From positions 1 through 42,344 of the forward strand of contig JAFGQW010000161.1 in the NCBI GenBank assembly GCA_016935485.1: DNA of 42,344 nt. The letters are read 5' to 3'. This DNA comes from Planctomycetota bacterium (lineage in GTDB: Bacteria > Planctomycetota > JAFGQW01). Position numbers and translations under genes: made by a program. Shown here one piece after another: positions 11,790 to 36,654 of the stretch; position 1 is the stretch's first letter, and every line of letters begins with the position of its first letter. A model generated the notes under the pieces. It was not told the origin of the DNA, ran no database searches, and saw only the letters and a list, made by a program, of their open reading frames with translations.

Positions 11790-11904
11790 GACCCGCGGAT
11801 TATAACAGGCCGGCCGCCGACCGGAGACCCCCGGGATCGGCGTGGGGCCCGAACAGAGCCGCTCCCCGCGTCGCCAAGCGCCGGTGCGGCGAGCGTCGAC
11901 GTCA

Positions 11905-12068
11905 GGGCCCGCGCAAGAGGAACCTGCCAGTCTGCGCGGATTCTCTCGCCCAGATCCGCACGGCGGAAAGCCGGTGGAATCGCTGATTCGAACCGGCTTT
12001 CCGCCCCGCCTCACGAACCTGAACCAGAATCTCGCGCGAAACCCGGGAAGTCACTCTTGCGGGGTTCC
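11905..12068. repeat. Dispersed palindromic element, copy A
   Basis: GGGCCCGCGCAAGAGG...GGCGGAAAGCCGGTGGAATCGCTGATTCGAACCGGCTTTCCGCC...GAACCTGAACCAGAATCTCGCGCGAAACCCGGGAAGTCACTCTTGCGGGGTTCC; near-identical segments in copies at 13059-13204 (inverted) and 35223-35381. Confidence 0.9.
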
Positions 12069-12341
12069 TCAGACCCCCGCGTGCCTCAGGTCCGAGAAAC
12101 TCGCGCGGTAGACGCGCTTGCCGTGGGTGCGCGTCAGTCGTTTGCGGTTGAGCTGACGCTGGACCTTCTCGTGGAGGATCGTGAGATAACGCCCGCACTC
12201 GTCGCGCGTGCCCACGAAGATCGCATCGTCGCTCAGGCTGTTGTAGACCTTGTACAGGCGCTTGCCGTGGACCCTTCTCAGGAAACGAACAGAGAGGTCC
12301 AGCTTGAAGCCATCGTTCTTCTGATCATGCTCGTGGCTCAT
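12069..12341 (-). CDS. Small basic hypothetical protein (90 aa) with internal HGKRxY duplication
   Basis: MSHEHDQKNDGFKLDLSVRFLRRVHGKRLYKVYNSLSDDAIFVGTRDECGRYLTILHEKVQRQLNRKRLTRTHGKRVYRASFSDLRHAGV; plausible start and composition; not recognised. Confidence 0.6.
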   Translation of the reverse strand: MSHEHDQKNDGFKLDLSVRFLRRVHGKRLYKVYNSLSDDAIFVGTRDECGRYLTILHEKVQRQLNRKRLTRTHGKRVYRASFSDLRHAGV

Positions 12342-12578
12342 GTTGGTTCCATTCCCAGCCTGGCCGGGAGCCGGCGGCAGCCCGGACGCCGCGGATGGCC
12401 AGCACATACCCGGCGTGGCCTTCGCCCGCAGCCCACCGCGATCCGCCGCGAGCCGTCAGATTGCGGCGCAGAAGCACTTCCCGAACCGAAACGGCCCGCC
12501 CAGCCGTCGAACCGAACGGTGTCCGGGGCCGTCGCGGCCCGCGTCGGAGGTCTTGGGCGCACCGTGCAACCGCTTCTT

Positions 12579-12875: not shown

Positions 12876-13058
12876 GGCGAGAATCCGGTCCGCCACTCAA
12901 GACCCGACGACGATTCCAGAGAACCAATACGTGCCGAGCCCGCTCCGTGCGTGAGGAACTCCCGGTTTTTTTCTTCGCCGAGCATCGAAGGTTGCGAGCG
13001 CAGCGCATCGGGCGCATCGATCCAACCTGATTCTGTTCAGTCGCTTAGGGCGACTCAT

Positions 13059-13204
13059 GGCCCATGCAGGAAGCGCTTCCCGGGCTTGGAGGCCAGGTCT
13101 GAACTCAGGCTCCTGCGGCGGGATGCCGGTTCGAACCAGCGGTTCCACCGACTCTCCGCGGTGTGGACCTGGGCAAGAAAGGAAGGTGCTTCTCTCGCCG
13201 GCCC
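13059..13204. repeat. Dispersed palindromic element, copy B (inverted relative to A and C, more degenerate)
   Basis: ggcccatgcaggaagcgcttcccggg...caggtctgaactcagg...cgggatgccggttcgaaccagcggttccaccgactctccgcgg matches the reverse complement of copies A and C. Confidence 0.8.
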
Positions 13205-34355: not shown

Positions 34356-35222
34356 ATGGTGTTCGAGAACGACCCCTTCGAGAACTTCAAGCGTCAGCGC
34401 CAGGTGGAGCTGATCGAGCAGGGCTTCAAGAACAAGGCGGAGACCCGCCGCAAGGAGCTCGACGATCTGGTGCGCAGCGGCCAGCGCTCCTCCGAGCTCG
34501 CCGACCGCATCCACGAGGAGATGCAGGAGTTCTTCAACGAAAGCAAGGAGCAGGTCTCCAGGCTCTTCAACGAGAGCAAGCACCCCGATTCGGTCGCGGC
34601 CGAGAAGGGCGTGCAGGAGGAGATGGAGGCCTTCTTCCGCGAGTCGACCGCGACCGCGGAGCGGCTGCTCGCCGGGATGTGCGACGCGGCGGGCGACCCG
34701 CACGAGGCCACCGACCGCATGGTGGACCACTTGAAGGACGTCTTCCAGCGATCGATGGACCGCATCGCCCGGGTGCGCGAACAGTACGCTCAGTCCGAGG
34801 AAACCGCCGCCAAGGTGGCGGGGGTCGCGAACCTGACCGACGTCGTGCAGACGATCAACGAGCTCGCGGACGGCGAGGACCCCTTCCGGCGCCAAACGCC
34901 GCCGGCAGCGCCCGTCCGGCCCGGCACCGCCGCCGGAGCCGCCTCGAGCGTCGTGACGGCCACACCCGAAGACGACCGCCTCGGCGCTGCACTCCCGCAC
35001 CGCCGCGTGGAGCGGGACAGTGACGAGGACACCTCCTCGCAGCGGATCCTCCGCCGCCACGGGCACCTGCCTTCCGGCAAGGCGCGCAAGGTCGGCATGA
35101 GCCTCCAGGAGATTGGCGAGCTTCGCGCCCTGAAGGAGCTCCTCATCCAGAAGGGCATCATCAGCCGCGAGGAGATCGCCGAGCAGCAGGCTGCCGCCAT
35201 CCGCGGCGCCCAGGCAGACTGA
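34356..35222 (+). CDS. Hypothetical coiled-coil protein
   Basis: MVFENDPFENFKRQRQVELIEQGFKNKAETRRKELDDLV...GMSLQEIGELRALKELLIQKGIISREEIAEQQAAAIRGAQAD; charged helical composition, plausible coding. Confidence 0.75.
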   Translation: MVFENDPFENFKRQRQVELIEQGFKNKAETRRKELDDLVRSGQRSSELADRIHEEMQEFFNESKEQVSRLFNESKHPDSVAAEKGVQEEMEAFFRESTATAERLLAGMCDAAGDPHEATDRMVDHLKDVFQRSMDRIARVREQYAQSEETAAKVAGVANLTDVVQTINELADGEDPFRRQTPPAAPVRPGTAAGAASSVVTATPEDDRLGAALPHRRVERDSDEDTSSQRILRRHGHLPSGKARKVGMSLQEIGELRALKELLIQKGIISREEIAEQQAAAIRGAQAD

Positions 35223-35381
35223 GGGCCCGCGCAAGAACGACTTCCCGTTTTCGCGGATCTGCTCGCCCGGGCCCGCGCGGCGGACAGCCGGTGGAATCGT
35301 TCATTCGAACCGGCTTCCCGCAACACGAACCTGAACCAGAATCTCGCGGCGAAACCCGGGAAGCTGTTCTTGCGCGGGCCC
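35223..35381. repeat. Dispersed palindromic element, copy C (159 bp, 16 bp perfect terminal inverted repeats)
   Basis: GGGCCCGCGCAAGAAC...GTTCTTGCGCGGGCCC termini; internal GCGGACAGCCGGTGGAATCGTTCATTCGAACCGGCTTCCCGC; begins at the base after the TGA at 35220-35222. Confidence 0.92.
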
Positions 35382-35490
35382 GTGAACCGCCGCCATCGTG
35401 CTGGCCGCCGCAAGGCGCCCCTGCTACACTTCAGCCCGCCGCCGATCGCCGCCGAAGCGGTCGGCGCACCCGGGAAGAGTCCTCCAGTCG

Positions 35491-36654
35491 ATGATGCCCG
35501 TTGCCGATCGCCCAGCCCGCGCGACGCGCCGCGCCACCCGCCGGCGAGGTGGCGTGATCCTGCCCCTGCCGTTCGTGGTCCTGGTCGCCATCGCCCTTGC
35601 CGGGGGCTGCCGCACCGGGTGGGACCACCGCAGCACCCTCCATCAGCTCTATATACCCGACGAAAGCGGCCAGCTCGTTGCCGCTTCCACCGTCAAGGAA
35701 CTGTCGTCTGGCCAGTGCCTGTTCCGCGCCGTCCTCGGACCGTTCGGGCTCTATGATCCCGTGCCCGAGGAGGTTCCGGTCCCCGACCCCGCGGGGCTAG
35801 GACGCACGACGATCCTCGAGCTCTCGGGCCTGCTCGCGGGCAACCCGGCGCTCACGGCGTTCGCGTTGCCCGAGTTCTCGGAGCTGGCGCTCAAGGCCCC
35901 GTTCGAGCTGACCCGTGCCCAGGCCGTCAAGGCGCTCGGCACGGCCCTCGACCGCCAGATCCCGCCGCTTGCACCGCTCCGGGGCGCGACCGAAGAAAGT
36001 GCCGAGAGAATCGGGGCCGCCGTCCGGGAGCTCATCGGTCGGGACGCTGCGGAGGCGACGGGCAGTGAGGCGCCCGGGACGCTTGGAGAGGAGCGCCGGC
36101 GCGAGCTCGTGCACGGGCTCGCCACGACCGACTACCGCTCGATCGAGAACACCCGCCCTGCCCTCAAGGCCCTCGGCCTGGTCGCTCGGTTCGCAGCGGG
36201 AGAGCCCGAGTCCATGCGCGGCGTCGCCGAGGAAGGCATTTATCGGCTGAGCCGGACGCTCTGTCGTCTGACGCTGCTTGCGCTGCTCGCAACCGAGCAG
36301 AGCACGGTCGTGCGCGGCGCGGCGGCCGAAGCGATCGGCGCGGCCCGAGAGGACTGGGCCGAGCGGGCGCTGCTCGATCTCCTGCCGGCAGAGAGCGACC
36401 CCGGCGTGATCCGCAAGGTCTACCGCTCGCTTGCGGAATACCGCACGTCCGCGGTCGCGCGAGCGCTGATCGCGGCGTGGAAAGCGCAGCCGAACTCGCT
36501 CAACGCGACGCTGGCCCGGCGTGCCCTGCTCGAGTTCACCCGGGAGGACCTCGGAAGCGCGCTCGATGCGTGGGAGAATCGGCTCGCCGAGCTGGGCTAC
36601 CTCGCGGCACCCCCACCCGCACCCCCGCGGGCGCCGCCCGTCCGCGCCACCTGA
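35491..36654 (+). CDS. HEAT-like repeat lipoprotein
   Basis: Lipobox VAIALAGGC; helical repeats STVVRGAAAEAIGAAREDWAERALLDLLPAESDPGVIRKVYRSLAEYRTSAVARALIAAWKAQ. Confidence 0.75.
   Translation: MMPVADRPARATRRATRRRGGVILPLPFVVLVAIALAGGCRTGWDHRSTLHQLYIPDESGQLVAASTVKELSSGQCLFRAVLGPFGLYDPVPEEVPVPDPAGLGRTTILELSGLLAGNPALTAFALPEFSELALKAPFELTRAQAVKALGTALDRQIPPLAPLRGATEESAERIGAAVRELIGRDAAEATGSEAPGTLGEERRRELVHGLATTDYRSIENTRPALKALGLVARFAAGEPESMRGVAEEGIYRLSRTLCRLTLLALLATEQSTVVRGAAAEAIGAAREDWAERALLDLLPAESDPGVIRKVYRSLAEYRTSAVARALIAAWKAQPNSLNATLARRALLEFTREDLGSALDAWENRLAELGYLAAPPPAPPRAPPVRAT

Follow-up and report, generated by a model that had tools for sequence, protein, structure and literature searches.

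A palindromic repeat often located at stop codons of a Planctomycetota genome is very probably an ISAzo13-type MITE

What kind of element is the palindromic repeat found in three copies on a contig of a Planctomycetota bacterium (JAFGQW010000161.1 of assembly GCA_016935485.1, analyzed over its entire 42,344 nucleotides and hereafter called the window), and how did its copies come to their positions? The original prediction, made from the letters of this stretch, described a new dispersed repeat family and left a choice between a MITE-like nonautonomous element, a REP/BIME-like repeat and a structured RNA. All three copies are located where they had been placed (Table 1), copy B in a degraded state, and the blocks shared among A, B and C, the perfect terminal repeat of copy C and a 14-bp perfect internal stem in copy A are present in the sequence. 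Copy B has its terminal GGG altered at the first base and is flanked by TCA and TTC. Beyond these earlier observations, copies A and C are both inserted exactly at stop codons with 3-bp TNA flanks. The 112-aa gene ending at copy A matched no Pfam family.

Table 1 Features of the window related to the three repeat copies
Feature	Position	Strand	Remark
Copy A of the MITE	11905–12068	+	84% identical to family consensus
Copy A, left target duplication (TCA)	11902–11904
Copy A, right target duplication (TCA)	12069–12071		TGA stop of minus-strand gene 12069–12407
112-aa gene	12069–12407	-	Stop codon carries copy A; gene model gives 12069–12341
Copy B of the MITE	13058–13204	-	Decayed, internally deleted; 66 bits, E 1.5e-18 (profile)
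Copy C of the MITE	35223–35381	+	Full length (159 bp), 16-bp perfect terminal inverted repeats
Copy C, left target duplication (TGA)	35220–35222		Stop of gene 34356–35222
Copy C, probable right target duplication (TGA)	35383–35385		Shifted by one extra G
Gene A, 288 aa	34356–35222	+	Native stop codon carries copy C
Gene B (HEAT repeats)	35494–36654	+	Syntenic, downstream of copy C

The repeat extends far beyond the window. In the draft genome of the host (G000; 4.9 Mb in 405 contigs, 71% G+C, ~90% complete), a profile search of 737 kb of contigs, mostly picked for containing matches, located it at no fewer than 56 distinct places. The dispersed family is thus real, and the outcome that would have spoken against it, a genome search returning the three known copies only, did not occur. 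Many relatives of copy C within the same genome are 81–89% identical over the full length, and E-values of 1e-55 to 1e-20 for the best further copies exclude chance. The 23-bp end pattern occurs 58 times, 31 times in forward and 27 times in reverse orientation, compared with zero occurrences of a reversed-pattern control. The unit is short (154–159 bp, typically ~159 bp), non-coding and palindromic along nearly its whole length, with long terminal inverted repeats (GGGCCCGCGCAAGAATAACTTCC...); in the alignment, similarity among the copies sets in at GGGCCCGCGCAAGA and ceases after TCTTGCGCGGGCCC or TTGCGCGAACCC. Several copies are situated at contig ends, as expected since repeats break assemblies. 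At L235 (C44):1–222, two tandem copies are separated only by TGA and the contig ends there, an arrangement that possibly reflects re-use of a regenerated target or, alternatively, an assembly artefact.

Traces of insertion are visible at the borders. Intact copies carry a 3-bp TNA direct repeat directly outside their ends, mostly preceded by C at the left border (CTNA) and followed by G at the right one (TNAG), usually in a CTNAG context. Among the 30 copies of the host genome with both flanks, the 3-bp flanks are identical in 12, and TNA forms the left flank in 18 and the right flank in 23; in other genomes, 54 of 96 flank pairs are identical, 52 of these being TNA. An empty site was identified in a member of another genus of the same family (G001), where homologues of gene A and gene B are neighbours at a distance of 41 nt without the element, and the gene A homologue ends in TAA with a C-terminus nearly as in the window. 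This comparison covers one locus in a divergent relative.

The search for a transposase gene bounded by the termini of the repeat, which had been proposed as a check, was successful. On a Candidatus Eisenbacteria contig (L157), ends of the MITE bound a 1906-bp element (L157:273–2178) with TTA on both flanks, whose open reading frame encodes an ISAzo13-family transposase (PF07592, 6e-117; NF033519, 8e-124). In a genome of the host's own phylum (G073:C337), such ends enclose a 1071-bp element that is again flanked by TTA and whose ISAzo13 transposase is broken. Relative to the 23-bp end of the MITE, one to two mismatches were counted at L157 and L283, and two to three at G073:C337. Further ISAzo13 loci of the phylum display GGGCC...AAGAATAAC ends with TNA flanks, and related ends adjoin TNA at such loci, for instance GGGCCCGCGCAAGAATAACATC, GGGCCGGCGCAAGAATAACACC and GGGCCCGTTAAAGAATAACTGAG. 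The L157 element also contains an upstream 260-aa open reading frame in another frame, which has no Pfam match and whose end resembles the usual transposase N-terminus; this may reflect a frameshift or an extended transposase. Within the ~90% complete host assembly, no intact ISAzo13 transposase was detected: the genes on contigs C38 and C46 are both decayed, and the ends of the C38 element resemble those of the MITE less well. An active partner may thus have been lost, may lie in the part of the genome that was not assembled, or may reside in another replicon or strain.

The terminal repeats, the TNA duplications, the empty site of the relative and the ends held in common with ISAzo13 elements agree with the mobile-element option of the original prediction, and we consider it very probable that the repeat is a MITE mobilized in trans by an ISAzo13-family transposase and inserting at CTNAG-like sites. 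In this mechanism, the DDE transposase would recognize the terminal inverted repeats of the MITE in trans, which we infer because the host assembly contains only broken transposase genes. Insertion would take place at a CTNAG-like site with duplication of the central TNA. As TAA and TGA, though not the third stop codon, are themselves TNA, an insertion there would regenerate the stop and be harmless, whereas most other sites of the 71% G+C genome lie within genes; copies would therefore be retained between genes and most often on stop codons, with selection as the presumed main cause of the bias. After insertion, the near-perfect palindrome would decay neutrally.

The positions of the copies were compared with genes predicted by a codon model that we built from those genes of the window with Pfam support; the stop-codon statistics rest on this model. 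Exactly at a predicted gene stop are 21 of 38 copies (≥60 bits) and 19 of the 30 with both flanks, and overlap with a predicted gene is limited to a single copy. The stop codon is left working since insertion duplicates its TNA. Among non-genic sites of the same contigs, stops account for 19% of TNA and 39% of CTNAG sites (binomial p = 8e-8 and 0.007, respectively). Much or most of the stop-codon bias would hence stem from the TNA/CTNAG target together with selection against insertion in genes, and the residual excess over CTNAG sites is modest and dependent on the gene calls (p = 0.007). In other genomes, 24 of 83 elements have their duplication exactly at the end of an open reading frame of ≥100 codons, compared with 14% of CTNAG sites. 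In 18 of the 21 stop-associated copies of the host genome, it is the same (left) end that adjoins the stop (p = 0.0015). Elsewhere, the corresponding ratios are 7:2 for a Sedimenticola family and 8:10 for the large cross-phylum family, and the orientation bias is not general across families.

This arrangement raises the question whether the copies at stops have been domesticated, i.e. whether a former MITE is kept at gene 3' ends because its hairpin benefits the upstream gene by terminating transcription, stabilizing the mRNA or providing a backup stop. The frequency of copies at stops and the preferred left-end orientation in the host genome would be in line with such a role, as would the strong hairpins (z-scores of -5 to -6), the folding energy being -109 kcal/mol for the consensus and -60 to -100 kcal/mol for individual copies. 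When the copy C hairpin is imposed, 19 pairs are changed on both sides compared with 10 in shuffles, a measure inflated by related copies. In addition, roughly half of the aligned copies have TAA, TGA or TAG in frame within the terminal repeat, 15 nt past the duplicated stop, possibly a backup stop; the equivalent codon of copy C (window 35238–35240) is not a stop. Several results nevertheless oppose domestication. Hairpin energy weakens as divergence from the consensus grows (Spearman -0.58), the RNAalifold covariation term is +0.2, and the proportion of co-directional next genes is that of genes in general (12:4 versus 390:142). The orientation bias is moreover absent from the largest sister family. 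An intrinsic terminator was considered and rejected, as copy C has neither a terminator-like site nor a terminator-like T run. Taken together, we regard domestication as improbable and attribute the palindrome to the mobile ancestor rather than to a conserved host function.

A structured non-coding RNA family, another option initially proposed, would fit the low folding energy. Searches against Rfam gave no match at the curated threshold and nothing above chance level when the threshold was lifted; covariation is little, copies occur in both orientations relative to genes, and they are flanked by target duplications, leaving this explanation with very small probability. A tRNA-like origin, hinted at by an internal GGTTCGAATC box, was dismissed since ARAGORN finds nothing. 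Least probable is a REP/BIME-like repeat dispersed by a RAYT (Y1) transposase: the repeat is indeed palindromic, intergenic and multi-copy, yet REPs measure 20–40 bp and carry a tag on one side (PMC3733652), whereas the unit here is ~159 bp long and has long terminal inverted repeats, 3-bp target duplications and the ends of a DDE family.

Elements with the same ends as the MITE were found in many phyla. Such sister elements exist in Nitrospinota, Acidobacteria, Deltaproteobacteria, Sedimenticola, Rokubacteria, Gemmatimonadetes, Nitrospirae and other Planctomycetota, and resemble the MITE in their ends, similar length (157–184 bp) and TNA duplication. Their interiors are different, and over the full length the 180-bp family resembles the MITE only weakly (E 4e-9). 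The sister elements cluster into three groups. One group of 57 elements spans Nitrospinota, Acidobacteria, Deltaproteobacteria, Nitrospirae and Planctomycetota at 69–97% identity, where the highest identities between phyla may be due to mis-binning, as some of the MAGs originate from the same studies; a Nitrospinota/Nitrospirae pair (87%) belongs to different isolate series. Judged from sequence comparison, interiors of 69–97% identity across phyla and MAGs (L094–L205) suggest either horizontal spread or mis-binned contigs. With respect to possible vectors, phages and plasmids gave no match to the element, and viral contigs no exact match to the end pattern. On a Desulfosarcina plasmid (NZ_CP087953.1:100145–100203), 60 bp match the end of the 157-bp sister family (82%).

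Under the MITE reading, a transposase family can now be assigned to palindromic repeats of a kind that abounds in uncultured bacteria and breaks their assemblies, and the element ends (GGGYYYGCGCAAGAATAASTTCC) can help to annotate such elements in different phyla. The positions would further illustrate simple harm avoidance in a gene-dense genome, by means of a target whose duplication recreates the stop that was hit. A broader idea is that the stop codon acts as a safe harbour for ISAzo13 MITEs, combining self-repairing insertion at TGA or TAA, non-random orientation and spread through many phyla, with some copies becoming functional gene 3' ends; in this full form we hold it to be rather unlikely.

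With regard to known systems, the initial statement that the repeat matches no nameable family holds in part: its ends can now be named as those of the ISAzo13 family, while the particular 159-bp family appears to be undescribed. In the open-access papers searched, ISAzo13 MITEs had not been described before, which is weak evidence as subscription journals mostly lie outside this set; a paper naming ISAzo13 as well as MITEs reports no elements of this type, and a 2024 review of prokaryotic MITEs mentions neither ISAzo13 nor stop codons (PMC10969869). The MITE shares with ISAzo13 insertion sequences (PF07592, NF033519) the same 20–23 bp ends (GGGCCCGCGCAAGAATAAC...) and 3-bp TNA flanks. Unlike these, it lacks a transposase gene, and is 154–159 bp long instead of ~1.1–1.9 kb. 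With the one full-length interior compared, that of L157, it has nothing visible in common, so that this comparison gave no sign of an origin by internal deletion. Similar to the IS630-derived RUP, Correia elements and MITEAba12, it is short, non-coding and multi-copy, with terminal inverted repeats, a target duplication and ends shared with an insertion sequence. It differs from RUP, Correia elements and MITEAba12 in its ISAzo13 partner, its TNA/CTNAG target, a palindrome of nearly full length, and the location of most well-flanked copies on stop codons.
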